A stretch of 40,894 nucleotides of DNA from Flavobacteriales bacterium (GTDB lineage Bacteria; Bacteroidota; Bacteroidia; Flavobacteriales_D; Crocinitomicaceae): NCBI GenBank assembly GCA_947470515.1, contig CANITF010000027.1, forward strand, positions 1 through 40,894, in the 5' to 3' direction. The first letter of the stretch is position 1; each line of letters starts with the position of its first letter. Below the pieces are notes generated by a model. That model saw only the letters and a list, made by a program, of their open reading frames with translations. It was not told the origin of the DNA and did not search any database. Position numbers and translations under genes: made by a program. Positions 6,238 through 14,884 of this stretch are shown in pieces.

Positions 6238-8196
6238 ATGTTGAAAAAATTCTTTTATATATTAATTCTGCTGATTCCTCAACTGACATTTGCGCAGTTG
6301 ATTGAAAAAGATTTGCGAGAAATTAGCGTTTCCGATAGTCTAAGAAAGTCGGTTAATAGAATTCCTTCGCTGAAAAGAGCAACGATTTTAGAATTGAATT
6401 TTGAAGATGTTGGACAATTGTTGCAGAAATTTGCTGGAATTAATGTAAAATCTTATGGCGGTTTAGGTGGATTGAAGACGATTTCTGTTCGTGGTTTGGG
6501 AAGTCAGCACACCAGTATTGTTGTGGACGGTTTTACAAACAGCAATACTCAAACGGGTCAAGTTAATCTTGGTCAAATTCAAAGTGATAATATTGAATCA
6601 ATCAGTTTGGTGGCAGGTGGTCAAAAAAGCGTTTTGGTTCCAACCTCAGCGCAAGTTGCTGGAAGTGTTGTATACATCGAAACATTTGAAAACACCTTTT
6701 CCGCTGAAAAACACAAAGTTCGATTTGCCTCAAAACTAGGTTCTTTTGGGCAATATGATAATTATTTGTCATACAAATTTAGCCTCAAGAAAATATTTGT
6801 CAGTGCTTTTGGAAAATACCGATTTGCGGATGGAGTTTATCCTTATTCTTTTCAAAATGGACAAACAACATATTCTGGAACACGCTATAACAATCATTTT
6901 CAAGATGCTTATGGCGGTTTATCCTTTGGATGTAGAATAGCCGATAATGGACTTCTTTCATTCAGTTATCGTTCAGATTGGAGCAATCAAGAATTACCTG
7001 GAGCAGTTATTTTGTATAGTGATAACAGTTTTCAAACCTTACAAACAGCAAATAATCGTTTGCAAATAGGTTATTCTCACTTTCATGATAAATGGAGCTT
7101 AAGAATTTTCTCAAATGCTTCAATTGGAAAATTAAATTACACAGACTCTTCTTTTCTCAATTCTGCAGGAGGATTGTTCTCAAATTATGAAAATGATCAA
7201 ATCCAATTTGGAATAAATACGCAATATTCAATTTCAAAAAAGATCAGTTTGTTTTTTGGAACAGAAGAACAAATAAGTAAGTTGCGATCGAATAATTCTG
7301 TTTTTGGAGCGCCAATTAGATGGCATAATTTCTCACTTTTGGGAACGAAATTGAATTTAAAACCGTTAAGTATTACTGGTCAATTGTCATCTCAATTCGT
7401 TCAAGATATGAATGATACATTGAGTATTCCAAGTATGTTCAAAGTGAACCCTTTTATTCAAATTGAGTCGAAAGAATTGATTCAGAAATTGAACTTAAGC
7501 ACTTTTGCTTTTTATCGAAATTCATTTAGAATGCCCTCTTTTAATGAACTATATTACAATTCCGTTGGAAATAGTAAGTTGAAACCAGAAGAATCGAATC
7601 AATTAACTTTAGGCATAGTATTAAGTCCGAATTTAGGGAAATTATCACTTGTAAATAGAACGAATTTTTATTTCAATCAGATTAATAATAAAATAGTAGC
7701 TATTCCAACCAAGAATTTATTTGTTTGGTCGATGCAAAATGTTGGAAAAGTGAATATTTTAGGGGCAGAATCGACTTTTGAATTGAGTTATAAATTCACT
7801 GATAAATGGAACATCAATAGTTTATTTAACTACACCTTGCAATTAGCAACGGATATTACGGATAGAAATAACCCAACTTTTGGACATCAAATCGCTTATC
7901 TTCCAAAACATACATTCAATGCAGACATTTCTCTCAAATGGAAAAATACTGGTTTTAGGTGGAGTACTTTCGGAAATTCATTGCGCTATTCCTTGAATGA
8001 AAATAATAGTTCAAATGAAGTTGCAGGGTTTGTGGTTTCAGATTTTTCTATTTTTTCGACAATTAAAGTAAAAAAACATGATATAAGAATTCAGTTTTCT
8101 TGTAAAAACATTTTCAATTTTTCTTATGCAATTGTCCGTTACTATGTGATGCCGGGAAGAAATTTTTTAATCTCATTCAATTATGCGTTTAATTAG
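6238..8196 (+). CDS. btuB: BtuB-like TonB-dependent cobalamin receptor
   Basis: The start is ATG 6238, giving a signal peptide ending LIPQLTFAQ; a TTG twelve bases earlier lies in a hairpin. The plug (about 43-160) has VGQLLQKFAGINVKSYGG, TISVRGLGSQHTSIVVDGF and the IESISLVAGGQ strand. The rest is a beta-barrel that ends with the short strand FLISFNYAFN. At 652 aa it matches small BtuB-type receptors without an N-terminal carboxypeptidase-regulatory domain. It should move cobalamin through the outer membrane using TonB energy. Substrate assignment comes from the riboswitch upstream and the BtuG-like gene downstream, which overlaps it by 14 bp. No inner-membrane BtuCDF genes are in the window. 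Confidence 0.85.
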   Translation: MLKKFFYILILLIPQLTFAQLIEKDLREISVSDSLRKSVNRIPSLKRATILELNFEDVGQLLQKFAGINVKSYGGLGGLKTISVRGLGSQHTSIVVDGFTNSNTQTGQVNLGQIQSDNIESISLVAGGQKSVLVPTSAQVAGSVVYIETFENTFSAEKHKVRFASKLGSFGQYDNYLSYKFSLKKIFVSAFGKYRFADGVYPYSFQNGQTTYSGTRYNNHFQDAYGGLSFGCRIADNGLLSFSYRSDWSNQELPGAVILYSDNSFQTLQTANNRLQIGYSHFHDKWSLRIFSNASIGKLNYTDSSFLNSAGGLFSNYENDQIQFGINTQYSISKKISLFFGTEEQISKLRSNNSVFGAPIRWHNFSLLGTKLNLKPLSITGQLSSQFVQDMNDTLSIPSMFKVNPFIQIESKELIQKLNLSTFAFYRNSFRMPSFNELYYNSVGNSKLKPEESNQLTLGIVLSPNLGKLSLVNRTNFYFNQINNKIVAIPTKNLFVWSMQNVGKVNILGAESTFELSYKFTDKWNINSLFNYTLQLATDITDRNNPTFGHQIAYLPKHTFNADISLKWKNTGFRWSTFGNSLRYSLNENNSSNEVAGFVVSDFSIFSTIKVKKHDIRIQFSCKNIFNFSYAIVRYYVMPGRNFLISFNYAFN

Positions 8197-9235
8197 TCTT
8201 ATAGGAATTGTACTCTTGTTTTTCTCTTGTAAAAAGGAAAAACCAGATCCTGAAGTAGTTTCAACTTTGGATAACGGAATGCTTGTGCTTTGTGAAGGAC
8301 TTTTTCAGCAAAATAACGCCTCTTTATCATGGTTGAATTTTTCGACAGATGAGGTAGATATTGATTTTTTCAATTCAAAAAATGGACGATTATTGGGTGA
8401 TACTGGAAACGATATGCAAATTTATGGTGGTAAAATTTATATCGTTGTAAATAATTCAAATACCATTGAAATACTTTCAAAATCAACAGGAACAAGTATC
8501 AAACAAATTTCAATGATGAACGGAAGTGTTGGGAAACAACCACGATCAATTGCCTTTTCTGGTTCGAAGGCGTTTATCACATGTTATGATGGGTTTGTAG
8601 ATGTATTGGATACTACAAGTTTGACTATTACTCAGCGAATTCAAGTTGGTTCAAATCCAGAAGATGTTACTGTTTCTAATGGAAAATTATTTGTTTCCAA
8701 TTCTGGCGGTTTAAATTCACCCAATCTTGATTCCACCGTTTCAATTATCAATCTTACAACTTTTCAAGAAATTACACGGATTACAGTCGGCAAGAATCCC
8801 GGTTTTATAGAAGTTGATAGTCAAGGCGATGTGTATGTAATTGCTCGTGGAAATTATGGAACGATTCCTTCTCGAATGGTGAAAATTAATCCTGTTTCCA
8901 ATACGGTTGAAGAAACATTTTCCTTTGATGCTTCTGGAATGGAACGCATGAACGATTATTTCTTAGTATCGTTTTACAATTATTCGAATCAAACAAGCGA
9001 AATACGTTTATTCAATACGCTAACAGAAACAATTGAAAACAATTCATTCATTAACACAAGTTCAATTACAACTCTTTATGGTGTGAAATACAATCCGATT
9101 TCAGATAAAATCTATTGTTTGGATGCCATGAGTTTTACGAATACGGGATATGTTAAACAATTCAGTTCAACAGGAATTTTAGAAAAGAGCTTTCATGTTG
9201 GATTGAATCCAAGTAAAATCATTTTTTATGAATAA
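8183..9235 (+). CDS. BtuG-like surface lipoprotein, YncE/DUF5074-type beta-propeller
   Basis: A lipoprotein signal ends LLFFSC with the acylated Cys at residue 16, followed by KKEKPDPE; charged residues after the Cys fit surface export in Bacteroidota. The remaining 330 residues show repeated propeller blades: GGKIYIVVNNSNTIEILS, GSKAFITCYDGFVDVLD, VSNGKLFVSNSGG and SKIIFYE. This matches the seven-bladed YncE/DUF5074 group that contains Bacteroides BtuG, a protein that binds cobalamin very tightly and caps BtuB. The gene overlaps btuB by 14 bp and the next gene by 8 bp, so expression is coupled. Assignment as BtuG is by family plus context; sequence identity to characterised BtuG could not be measured. 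Confidence 0.83.
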   Translation: MRLISLIGIVLLFFSCKKEKPDPEVVSTLDNGMLVLCEGLFQQNNASLSWLNFSTDEVDIDFFNSKNGRLLGDTGNDMQIYGGKIYIVVNNSNTIEILSKSTGTSIKQISMMNGSVGKQPRSIAFSGSKAFITCYDGFVDVLDTTSLTITQRIQVGSNPEDVTVSNGKLFVSNSGGLNSPNLDSTVSIINLTTFQEITRITVGKNPGFIEVDSQGDVYVIARGNYGTIPSRMVKINPVSNTVEETFSFDASGMERMNDYFLVSFYNYSNQTSEIRLFNTLTETIENNSFINTSSITTLYGVKYNPISDKIYCLDAMSFTNTGYVKQFSSTGILEKSFHVGLNPSKIIFYE

Positions 9236-10199
9236 AGTGCTAAGTCTAATAACACTTATCTTTTCTTCAATTTTATTTGGACAAACTTTTGATGCACCTG
9301 CAGGTCAAAATGGATCATTAGCCATTCATAAAGATTCGTCTGTGATTGTTAATTGGGCAACTGGAATTCAAGTTTCAAGAGGTTATTTGAATGTTGCCAA
9401 TCCAAGCTTGGGAGTTGTAGGATTTGGATTAGAACAAGAAGCATTAGGAATTGCTGAAGGCGATGGAATCAGCGTCGTTTCTCTAGGAGATGGGGGAGAA
9501 GCTGTTTTAACATTTTCAAATGCGATAATGAATTTAGCGGGACCGGATTTTGCAGTTTTCGAAAATGGATTTGCAGATGATTATATGGAATTTGCACATG
9601 TTGAAGTAAGTTCTGATGGTGTCAATTATTTTCGATTTCCATCGATTAGTGAAATTCCATTAACTATTCAAACAGATAATTTCTCATTTGTCGATTGCCG
9701 TTATGTTTATAATCTCGCTGGAAAATATCGTCAAGGTTATGGTGTTCCGTTTGATTTGGAAGAGCTAGTTGGAATTCCAAATTTAGATATACATGCAATT
9801 ACGCATGTGAAATTAATTGATGTATTAGGAAGTATTGATGCGCAATTTGGTTCAATGGACGATTCAGGCGATTTAATCAATGATCCTTATCCTACAGAGT
9901 TTGAATCCGGCGGATTTGATTTGGATGCGTTAGCAGTGATCAATGAGGCACCAGCAGGAATTAATGAATCATTAATGCGTTTTTCTGTTTCGCCTAATCC
10001 AACTACTGGAATTATTCAAATTCATTCAATCGAACAAGGAGTAATTAGATTTTATAATGTGATAGGTGAATTATTGGGTGAACACGAAACCACTGGTTTT
10101 TTAGAAACAGATTTAAGAAGTTTGAATGAAAAAATCATTTTCGTGCAATTCACTTCAAAAAATAGTAGTTCAAGTCAACGGGTTATTCTTCTAGATTAA
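9228..10199 (+). CDS. T9SS-sorted cell-surface protein of the B12 operon
   Basis: The signal peptide ends SSILFGQ. The body (about 20-245) has the strand pattern of Bacteroidota 'cell surface protein' families: VVSLGDGGEAVLTFSNAI, then DFAVFENGFADDYMEFAHVE, VSSDGVNYFRFPSI and GGFDLDALAVIN. The C-terminus (about 250-323) is a T9SS sorting domain beginning MRFSVSPNPTTGIIQIHSI. It overlaps the BtuG-like gene by 8 bp, so translation is probably coupled, and it belongs to the riboswitch operon. Bacteroides B12 loci also carry variable extra cobalamin-binding surface proteins such as BtuH. Whether this one is a counterpart cannot be decided from sequence alone. Confidence 0.78.
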   Translation: MNKVLSLITLIFSSILFGQTFDAPAGQNGSLAIHKDSSVIVNWATGIQVSRGYLNVANPSLGVVGFGLEQEALGIAEGDGISVVSLGDGGEAVLTFSNAIMNLAGPDFAVFENGFADDYMEFAHVEVSSDGVNYFRFPSISEIPLTIQTDNFSFVDCRYVYNLAGKYRQGYGVPFDLEELVGIPNLDIHAITHVKLIDVLGSIDAQFGSMDDSGDLINDPYPTEFESGGFDLDALAVINEAPAGINESLMRFSVSPNPTTGIIQIHSIEQGVIRFYNVIGELLGEHETTGFLETDLRSLNEKIIFVQFTSKNSSSSQRVILLD

Positions 10200-12190: not shown

Positions 12191-14884
12191 TTGACCGTGT
12201 TGAAAATCTATCTTTTTTTATATTGTTGTTTGATCTTACCAATCCAATTGGTTTTTCCATTATACGGGCAATTAAAGAAAGTTACACCGGTGAATTCCAA
12301 GAATCAGTCTGCTCACATTTTATTCAAAAAGAGTGAGATTCAACAATTTGGTTTTGACGAATATATGCATCCTGAATGGTCTAAATTTTATGAATCATTC
12401 GAAACAGATGAATTTAATGATTATAAAATTTGTTACAAGTCAGTAGGTTATAATATTCCAGATAACGTTGATGCGCTTCTTCAAAATATAACTGATTTCG
12501 ACATCAGACAGCTTGATTTTAAAATCAAAGGGAAACCTGAAAAAATTCGTTTTGCACAAAAGAATGACAGTACATTCACCTTGTTTCTTCCTAAAAAAAC
12601 CTATAAATATAGTGTCGTAGCTAAATATCAAGGAAAAAGTTTAGGACTATTAAACGTAGAGGTTTACGATTTAAAGTCAGAAGAAGTAATCATCATACCA
12701 CTGATGGATATTGATTTAAACAGAGATAGCCTCGAGCAATATCTAAACGCTATTTATTCGCAGGCCAATCTTAATTTTAACGTTCGAATTAATTCAGTTT
12801 TTAAATCAAATGATATTGATCTTAAAGCTCTATTTGATAATCCGAGTCCAACAAATGATCGATTTACAAATCAAATGCAAGAATTTCGTGATGCGTATTT
12901 TGAAAGTTTTCCAAATGCTGATAAAAACGCATACTATATCTTCATAATTCCAGGTTTTGTTAATCCGAAAATCAATGGATTCATGGTTCAAAATAAAGCT
13001 GTTGGTTTTGTTAAAGTGAATGAATTAGATAAAATGCATTTGTCCATTGCTCGTCAGCTGGGATATGGAGTTGGCGCATTGCAAAATAGTTGGCTAAATG
13101 AAGGTCCAAAACTCAATACTACGGCCAATTTAATGGATGAAAAAGGAGGAGTTGAACTTCAGTTCTTTCAATGGGAAAACATTCGTCATAGCTGTCACAG
13201 TTTTTCTTATTTTGATAATTATGAGGACGTAAAAACAAATAGTGGATTGGTGGCATATTACTTTTGGGAAGAAGATAAAGAAGGAAACATTATTCTACAG
13301 AATAACGATCTACTACTTTCATTAAAACGACCATATAAGAAGAATTTTGAGTCATACCATTTGAATATTAATGATTTCTTTTTTCAAGTTCGCTTCAAAT
13401 TGGCTGGATATTTTATCTGTTTCTGGCATATTGTTGCTTTTGTTTTTATTATGATCGGTACTTTTTTATTGCGTAAGCGTTTTAATAAATTTCTTATGCG
13501 AAAAATGAAATATCCTCGTTTTTGGAAGTTTTTAGCAAGGTTAGGATTTTTTGCTTCAGGCGTTTTAGTATATTTTCTAATTTTTCTATTGATCAATAAA
13601 GGTTACGAGCAATTTGAAGTAAAAGAGGGGATTCTTCAAGATTTGAAAGGTCAAAATTTCAAACAAGTAAAAAATACAATTCTAGCCAATCAAAATCTTA
13701 ACTATTCTAATAGAAATGCATTATCATCTGAAATGTTGATCAAAAGAAAAGATGAATGGTTTGTAAAAAGAAAAAAGAAAGTCTTGTATTTTGATTTGAG
13801 ACAAGATGAAGCCGGGAACTGGAGTAAATGTAAATATATTGAGGACAAAGATAGTTTGGTTTTGATAAATTTTGATTTTAGACAAATCGCTCAAAGTCAT
13901 TACTTTGTTTTCAATTATATTAAAAGTGATGGAACAATTGTTGATCAAAAGGTCTTCAATCATTTAGGAAATGATCTAACGAATAAAATCCAACTTTCGG
14001 ATCCAGCAGAACGAATATTACTTTTTGTGAATGGCTATAGACCAACATCGATTGGAAGTTCTTTTGAAGATAACTTTAAAGACATTTTAAACAAAGGATT
14101 AGAATTTCCAAATACGGGGAATATGATTTATAGTTTTGATCGTTATGATTATTGGAGGCCTTGGCAAGAAATGGACTTATTATTTCAGAAACGTATTAAC
14201 CCAAGTGATACATATTACGCCGACGGACATTTTTCGGTGAGCACCTCCAATTATGAAAGTTTGATTAATTTCTCAACTACCTCTTCAATTTATCCAAAAC
14301 GATGTGCCAATAAAAAGAAACATGTTTGTTATAATACCACGATTTCAAGCTCGGGTATTTTTGGATCCAAATCCATAAAAACAGTTGAATTACTGAAAAT
14401 GAAATCGAATAAAAGTGGTTTTCAAGAACGTATAGAAAACGGAAGAATAGCCGGGAAAAATTTATTGCTTTTGTTCAATGAATTACCGAATAAATCTGCC
14501 AATGATACTTTGTATGTTGTTGCACATAGCATGGGGTTTGCCTATTCGTTGGGAATAATAGAAGTGTTAAGAGGACGTATCAATTTTGGTGGCTTTTACA
14601 TTATGGCTCCAGAAAATGCAACTAGTGGAAAAGTAAAATTGAAAGAATGGAAAGAAATTTGGCAATATGGAAGTAAATTCGAATCGAAAGGTGGTGATGC
14701 TCCCTGTTTACTAGATGGTGTTGCCCCTCAAACAATAATTAAAGGTCTATCAGAAAAACATAGAGCATATATTCCTAAACAATTTTATAAAAAGAAAGGA
14801 TTTTTCGATTCCCATTTTGTGGGATATTATACGTGGGTATTTGATATTAAAAAAGGAAAAATTGGAAGTATTACACAACGTTGA
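12191..14884 (+). CDS. Membrane protein fusing an inactive zincin-like domain to an alpha/beta-hydrolase domain
   Basis: The protein has 897 aa and no family name that I know. No ATG occurs before a hydrophobic N-terminal segment (IYLFLYCCLILPIQLVFPLY), so the start must be TTG 12191, GTG 12197 or TTG 12200. Residues 285-301 read SIARQLGYGVGALQNSW, and NLMDEKGGVELQFFQWENI follows at about 313-331. These line up with the 'AHELGHGxxxLxHtF...NLMDYxxGxxLxxxQWxxI' pattern of a Bacteroidota metalloprotease family, but all zinc-binding and catalytic residues are changed (R288, Q289, Y292, N299). Two membrane helices follow (about 407-427 and 453-471). The C-terminal part has ERILLFVNGYRP, and VVAHSMGFAYSLG with Ser780 in a lipase-type G/A-x-S-x-G elbow. 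I infer a membrane-bound hydrolase with a sensor-like pseudoprotease domain; the substrate is unknown. Confidence 0.7.
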   Translation: MTVLKIYLFLYCCLILPIQLVFPLYGQLKKVTPVNSKNQSAHILFKKSEIQQFGFDEYMHPEWSKFYESFETDEFNDYKICYKSVGYNIPDNVDALLQNITDFDIRQLDFKIKGKPEKIRFAQKNDSTFTLFLPKKTYKYSVVAKYQGKSLGLLNVEVYDLKSEEVIIIPLMDIDLNRDSLEQYLNAIYSQANLNFNVRINSVFKSNDIDLKALFDNPSPTNDRFTNQMQEFRDAYFESFPNADKNAYYIFIIPGFVNPKINGFMVQNKAVGFVKVNELDKMHLSIARQLGYGVGALQNSWLNEGPKLNTTANLMDEKGGVELQFFQWENIRHSCHSFSYFDNYEDVKTNSGLVAYYFWEEDKEGNIILQNNDLLLSLKRPYKKNFESYHLNINDFFFQVRFKLAGYFICFWHIVAFVFIMIGTFLLRKRFNKFLMRKMKYPRFWKFLARLGFFASGVLVYFLIFLLINKGYEQFEVKEGILQDLKGQNFKQVKNTILANQNLNYSNRNALSSEMLIKRKDEWFVKRKKKVLYFDLRQDEAGNWSKCKYIEDKDSLVLINFDFRQIAQSHYFVFNYIKSDGTIVDQKVFNHLGNDLTNKIQLSDPAERILLFVNGYRPTSIGSSFEDNFKDILNKGLEFPNTGNMIYSFDRYDYWRPWQEMDLLFQKRINPSDTYYADGHFSVSTSNYESLINFSTTSSIYPKRCANKKKHVCYNTTISSSGIFGSKSIKTVELLKMKSNKSGFQERIENGRIAGKNLLLLFNELPNKSANDTLYVVAHSMGFAYSLGIIEVLRGRINFGGFYIMAPENATSGKVKLKEWKEIWQYGSKFESKGGDAPCLLDGVAPQTIIKGLSEKHRAYIPKQFYKKKGFFDSHFVGYYTWVFDIKKGKIGSITQR

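Follow-up and report, generated by a model that had tools for sequence, protein, structure and literature searches.

The window, a stretch of 40,894 nucleotides from a Flavobacteriales bacterium of the family Crocinitomicaceae (GCA_947470515.1, contig CANITF010000027.1), encodes an intact open frame of 897 amino acids on the plus strand at positions 12191-14884. Its product is best read, at a probability of about 0.6, as a serine hydrolase anchored in the membrane and facing the periplasm, with a catalytically dead zincin as its binding or regulatory accessory module. In this reading, the protein would be exported by a signal peptide and anchored by a hairpin of two helices joined by a basic loop on the cytoplasmic side, which would leave both domains together in the periplasm. 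The pseudo-zincin, probable kin of the protease module of TANFOR-like toxins, would have lost its zinc site once and may have been retained as a scaffold for binding proteins or peptides, through which the hydrolase is regulated, recruited or positioned. We infer such partner binding and such an action on the hydrolase, which would in turn cut a lipid or ester of the envelope. The gene was divided into the following features.

12191-14884, plus strand: whole gene, 897 aa; TTG start, with the TTG at 12200 as an equally possible alternative
12191-12274, plus strand: signal-peptide-like hydrophobic start, residues 1-28 (hydropathy 2.2)
12311-12700, plus strand: beta-rich first part of the N-domain, residues 41-170; the best-modelled portion (Ig-like), common to the intact long relatives
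12701-13237, plus strand: pseudo-zincin core, residues 171-349 (alignment, profile searches, profile-profile comparison, column counts)
13043-13093, plus strand: dead site, residues 285-301, in which R288, Q289, Y292 and N299 replace H, E, H and H
13127-13183, plus strand: NLMD...QW segment, residues 313-331
13238-13390, plus strand: YYFWEED segment, residues 350-400, which also begins the stand-alone hydrolases of about 480 aa
13394-13477, plus strand: predicted membrane helix 1, residues 402-429 (hydropathy peak)
13478-13525, plus strand: basic loop, residues 430-445, predicted to be cytoplasmic
13526-13606, plus strand: predicted membrane helix 2, residues 446-472 (hydropathy peak)
13607-13990, plus strand: linker, residues 473-600
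13991-14881, plus strand: alpha/beta-hydrolase-like domain, residues 601-897
14303-14329, plus strand: cysteine pair C705...C713, the two occurring together in 79 of 80 fused copies
14528-14530, plus strand: predicted nucleophile Ser780 (AHSMG)
14714-14716, plus strand: predicted catalytic Asp842
14813-14815, plus strand: predicted catalytic His875

Homologues were collected from overlapping samples. A match was obtained in 27 of 60 relatives, and an N-domain match in 90 of 150 genomes of the same family. Of 199 genomes of the order, 40 matched the intact-zincin profile and 44 the hydrolase profile; in the phylum, 18 of 395 genomes matched the former profile and four of 390 the latter. The 209 frames matching the N- or C-domain profile were reduced to 132 when contained frames were dropped and to 122 when identical sequences were merged, and these comprise 80 frames with both domains, 21 with the N-domain only and 21 with the C-domain only. 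Nineteen of the N-only frames are long, measuring 1034-2031 aa between stops, with some truncated where a contig or locus ends, and the remaining two are fragments of fused proteins. No second match to the 897-aa protein was found in the window genome in a search at E<=10.

By profile comparison, the N-domain, which spans residues 36-349 of the window protein, is a zincin homologue along its whole length, and chance likeness is excluded. The profile of 19 intact domains aligned with that of 20 fused N-domains over 302 columns at an E-value of 3.7e-68, and a profile from three intact domains matched the window protein at 1.3e-54. Pfam Reprolysin models are matched weakly by at most 11 of the 19 intact domains, with a best E-value of 1.4e-5. 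It was verified that R288, Q289, Y292 and N299 fall in the columns of the H, E, H and third H of the AHELGHG..LxHTF pattern, so that the four replacements noted in a preliminary description of this DNA were borne out. The gap-free alignment reported there holds for residues 285-301; for residues 313-331 it holds against part of the intact relatives, the others aligning once small insertions are allowed. In Pfam and NCBIfam, the window protein matched no model at E<=10, and the best phmmer match in the PDB reached an E-value of only 0.061. Structure models, built from seven sequences each, were of low confidence (mean pLDDT 45.6 for the full protein and 56.0 for residues 36-365), and a fold search with the low-confidence model of residues 36-365 retrieved chiefly Ig-like repeats of S-layer proteins and filamins, in alignments of about 80-120 columns over the beta-rich part.

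In 81 fused copies (the 80 two-domain frames plus one cut copy), no more than one of the three zinc histidines survives: five copies keep one and 76 keep none. HExxHG and the third histidine are intact in 19/19 long frames, and HExxH also occurs in 11 further long frames from the phylum search. Taking HExxH with a third zinc ligand as the mark of an active zincin metallopeptidase, the fused N-domain would not be one. The loss is thus family-wide; as to whether the substitutions are fixed, a question that the preliminary description had raised, they are not, with R in 34, Q in 13, K in 11, N in 4 and H in 3 copies at position 288, besides others, and Q in 23, E in 18 and T in 14 at position 289, again besides others. 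Since the replacing residues are not fixed, the old active site itself is not a conserved new pocket. In contrast to this variability, R233, D342 and E345 are present in all covered fused copies and belong, with F273, to the conserved but scattered scaffold positions of the pseudo-zincin, and N313 and D316 of the NLMD segment are retained in 59/81 and 60/81 copies.

When 67 fused and 27 intact domains, 94 in all, were placed in one tree, a single branch with support of 100 separated the dead from the intact state. This tree included 67 of the 81 fused copies, 16 of the 19 long rows from family and order and 11 phylum rows. A 344-aa piece and rows whose N-domain match did not exceed 120 bits were omitted, and all trees came from quick searches with SH-aLRT as their sole support measure. 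The tree is not rooted from outside, and the dead form is probably derived from the intact one because HExxH is the working state and because strong matches of the intact form occur in further families of the order and class. Additionally, N-domain dN/dS ranged from 0.05 to 0.23 in 13 measurable pairs of relatives, out of 14 of which one was saturated; across the last 100 residues of the N-domain it was 0.03-0.28 and in the hydrolase 0.03-0.12 for the same 14 pairs, several of which have dS above 1 and give rough values only. The loss of the zinc site thus maps to one branch and is not decay, and the N-domain is under purifying selection. Lone decay of the site, which the preliminary description had considered as an alternative to its reading, was rejected for the pairs tested, as the site is dead in all fused copies and dN/dS is well below 1. 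Along the same lines, it is highly improbable that the N-domain as a whole is a decaying, functionless remnant: such a remnant would fit the faster divergence of this domain than of the hydrolase and its shortening in some relatives, but not values far below 1 over both the whole N-domain and its last 100 residues (0.03-0.28). Decay is possible in the shortened lineage, which is absent from the dN/dS pairs.

The two membrane helices proposed earlier between the domains were recovered as hydropathy peaks at residues 402-429 and 446-472. In 76/80 fused copies the loop is flanked by two hydrophobic windows that reach 1.3 or more on the Kyte-Doolittle scale, and in 68/80 by windows of at least 1.5. 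The net charge of the loop (K+R minus D+E) has a median of +9 and a range of 3 to 11 among fused copies, and the outer flanks of the helix pair have median K+R of 2 and 1.5. According to the positive-inside rule, basic loops face the cytoplasm, so that the loop between the helices would be cytoplasmic and both domains would lie outside. The pair C705 and C713, found together in 79/80 fused hydrolases, fits an exported domain. Thus, the pseudo-zincin and the hydrolase are both predicted to be periplasmic on the basis of hydropathy, loop charge, signal-peptide-like start and cysteines. On this point the preliminary description, which had placed the domains on opposite sides of the membrane, is not supported. 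A transmembrane receptor with the dead protease outside and the hydrolase in the cytoplasm is suggested by the presence of membrane helices between two separate domains, and it becomes barely credible given a signal peptide, helices that are even in number and enclose a basic loop, the cysteine pair in the hydrolase, and stand-alone hydrolases of the same family that have signal-peptide-like starts.

The C-terminal domain is probably a serine hydrolase of the alpha/beta-hydrolase type, and likely an active one; this assignment comes from motif order, invariance and concordant weak matches. Ser780, correctly placed in a lipase-type elbow (AHSMG) by the first description, is invariant where covered (78/78 fused and 21/21 stand-alone copies), as are D842 (77/77 and 21/21) and H875 (68/68 and 21/21), and the three were called a triad by motif order. 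When 32 hydrolase domains were scanned singly, DUF900 was matched in 16 (best E 4.8e-4), Ser_hydrolase in eight, Hydrolase_4 in four and Abhydrolase_6 in two, and the window's own domain gave no match to any of these four models. A profile of 28 domains searched against the PDB had a lipase as its best match, at an E-value of 0.19. The likeness to the DUF900 and Ser_hydrolase families of Pfam thus consists of weak matches in 16/32 and 8/32 domains, a GHSMG-like elbow and the order Ser-Asp-His; unlike them, the window domain is without a match, and the domain opens on an NGYR motif and has insertions that the stand-alone relatives lack. Those stand-alone relatives, of about 480 and 300 aa, occur in the same family and have signal-peptide-like starts, and the kind of about 300 aa was found in family f9 too. 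In five hydrolases of the latter size (L192, L197, L201, L202, L203), a conserved stretch translated as VYG..LP.EFFISM precedes the likely start, pointing to either a conserved 5' region or a wrongly assigned start.

The slowly evolving core of the fused protein is the hydrolase, and the dead protease diverges faster: in 3079/3081 pairs the hydrolase was more conserved than the N-domain, with a median identity of 52% versus 28%. In genus g41, 12 copies of 734-818 aa have a weak N-domain match, and in genome G069 the protein is 563 aa long, with the hydrolase and two hydrophobic stretches but no N-domain that could be recognised. In a tree rooted with the stand-alone hydrolases, these 13 sequences form one clade (support 99) that joins five full-length copies (94) within the fused group, and one more short copy (L114, from G092 of genus g11) is placed elsewhere, which puts shortened forms at two positions of the tree. 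The N-domain was therefore probably reduced secondarily in some lineages, where it is dispensable, and it is probably an accessory module. These results bear on a rather unlikely alternative that deserves weight, in which the pseudo-zincin would be a passive spacer or folding partner that serves the stability or reach of the hydrolase and has no regulatory ligand. It would explain why the old active site has no conserved replacement, why the conserved residues (R233, F273, D342, E345) are scattered scaffold positions and why the domain is shortened or missing in some lineages; however, a domain of about 310 residues kept under purifying selection across 10 sampled genera exceeds the needs of a spacer. 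The accessory binding or regulatory role preferred here has its own difficulties, and the weak Pfam matches of the hydrolase, the poor structure models, the variability of the old site, the shortening or loss of the N-domain in some lineages and the lack of a conserved operon partner argue against it.

The intact relatives lie mid-chain in proteins of roughly 1000-2200 aa, which resemble polymorphic toxins and are best termed 'TANFOR-like'. Sixteen of the 19 long proteins were compared pairwise, omitting the shortest and two cut frames; similarity was found in 120/120 pairs for the zincin and in 2/120 pairs for the last 200 residues, and a constant zincin with variable tails is a mark of polymorphic toxins. 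Fn3 matches occur among the long zincin proteins, and one of them, of a divergent subtype, has a pretoxin HINT domain with a sub-threshold EndoU match. The TANFOR model matched the N-termini of 4/10 scanned long proteins at E<=0.05, under the model cut-off; at E<=1 it matched 11/20 genomes, several times within long zincin frames and in no case above the cut-off, and it matched 1/14 control genomes. The window protein had no match to the TANFOR N-terminus in NCBIfam at E<=10, nor did the window genome at E<=1. Compared with the TANFOR toxins, as far as the available part of their description goes (PMC7073777), the intact relatives are alike in their sub-cut-off TANFOR-like starts, Fn3 matches, variable tails and exported-looking nature, whereas the window protein has a dead site and a constant hydrolase (median identity of 52% over 3081 pairs of fused proteins) in place of a variable toxin tail. 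The dead copy thus probably derives from a TANFOR-like toxin protease lineage. The words metallo, HExxH, zinc and protease are absent from the main text of the TANFOR paper (PMC7073777).

At the loci L147-L166, the intact HExxH module lies in the middle of long toxin-like proteins. In 11/20 of these loci (L148, L151, L153, L155-L160, L163, L164), two co-directional genes stand upstream of the long zincin gene in the order A-B-toxin, and in L151 and L153 one additional gene precedes the toxin. Protein A is about 1000-1245 aa where uncut and protein B about 541-599 aa; in the single A protein scanned, a T9SS sorting tail scored below threshold, and the single B protein scanned gave no match. This arrangement is a candidate delivery cassette. 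The window genome (G000) also encodes, at contig C2:91239-91358 (L227), a 725-aa protein that looks secreted, keeps its HEMGH site intact and is only weakly like the zincin profile (E 7.2e-4).

The fused form was found in 76/90 family genomes with an N-domain match, counted by frame length, with the hydrolase in the same frame verified for the 132-frame set, and it spans 10 of the 24 sampled genera of the family. Outside the family, hydrolase matches in the order sample were confined to four f9 genomes, as frames of 296-297 aa, and the phylum sample gave two weak partial ones. Thus, across the family, order and phylum samples, the fusion was met in one Flavobacteriales family only, which consists mostly of aquatic bacteria. 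Two metagenome-assembled records labelled Chitinophaga pinensis (L031, L035) carry close relatives of the window gene; their genome family also includes L036, labelled Crocinitomicaceae, which makes the labels doubtful. The gene surroundings were compared in 41 contexts, one of which was the window, in search of a conserved neighbour; beside the gene itself (41/41), the next commonest gene family was present in 10/41. Gene neighbours are common to members of a genus and differ between genera. In the window, positions 8183-10199 of the plus strand hold a DUF5074 beta-propeller gene and a gene whose 323-aa product has a T9SS sorting tail scoring below threshold, and both families recur next to the fusion gene in some relatives of the same genus.

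Whole-length homology to a module of toxin-like proteins from the same bacterial family, together with an N-domain that diverges faster than the hydrolase, could also mean that the pseudo-zincin acts as a decoy or in an immunity-like way, by binding incoming toxins that carry the intact domain, or their substrates. This is improbable, because a frame of at least 1000 aa accompanies the fused form in just 9/76 family genomes (a count of long zincin proteins by frame length), the neighbour genes of the fusion vary among genera, and dN/dS over the whole domain carries no sign of an arms race. A further speculation, held to be similarly doubtful, is that a toxin protease domesticated in this one family lost catalysis once and, coupled to a membrane-anchored hydrolase, now acts as a periplasmic sensor, which would turn incoming or kin toxins, or their substrates, into an envelope response.

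Catalytically inactive LytM regulators, which include EnvC and NlpD besides DipM, offer a parallel for the preferred reading of a dead zincin serving an anchored hydrolase. In the portions of the sources available, inactive LytM domains such as that of DipM stimulate cell-wall hydrolases, so that a dead envelope metallopeptidase domain would act on a hydrolase in both cases; they differ in fold and family and are separate proteins, whereas here both domains share one chain. HExxH is likewise lost in the dead zincins of the CLCA family and in pseudo-ADAMs (PMC3650047, PMC11266112, in the parts available), and the substitution bias of dead zincins from His to Arg/Lys and from Glu to Gln (PMC3650047, likewise in part) is also seen here at positions 288 and 289. 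These proteins are unlike the fusion in that no hydrolase partner within the chain was seen in those parts. The LytM and pseudo-ADAM parallels may serve as working analogies and not as kinship. A dead transglutaminase in polymorphic toxins, suggested to be kept for peptide binding in the available part of its description (PMC3482391), is a precedent of another fold that lies within toxins, unlike the present dead domain, which stands outside a toxin-like architecture. An inactive zincin-like domain is also mentioned for another bacterial conflict system in the part available (PMC8195603). No description of a fusion of a pseudo-zincin with a hydrolase was recognised in searches of open-access PMC full text, a scope outside which most subscription literature lies.

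These findings bring to light a family-wide protein that has no Pfam or NCBIfam match and point to a protease module in TANFOR-like proteins on which the TANFOR paper is silent in its main text (PMC7073777). Within one family, a natural series is present in which the zincin is intact in toxin-like proteins, dead in the fused form, shortened or absent, while the hydrolase and its predicted anchor are kept. This series makes the role of dead bacterial proteases testable within a single chain.
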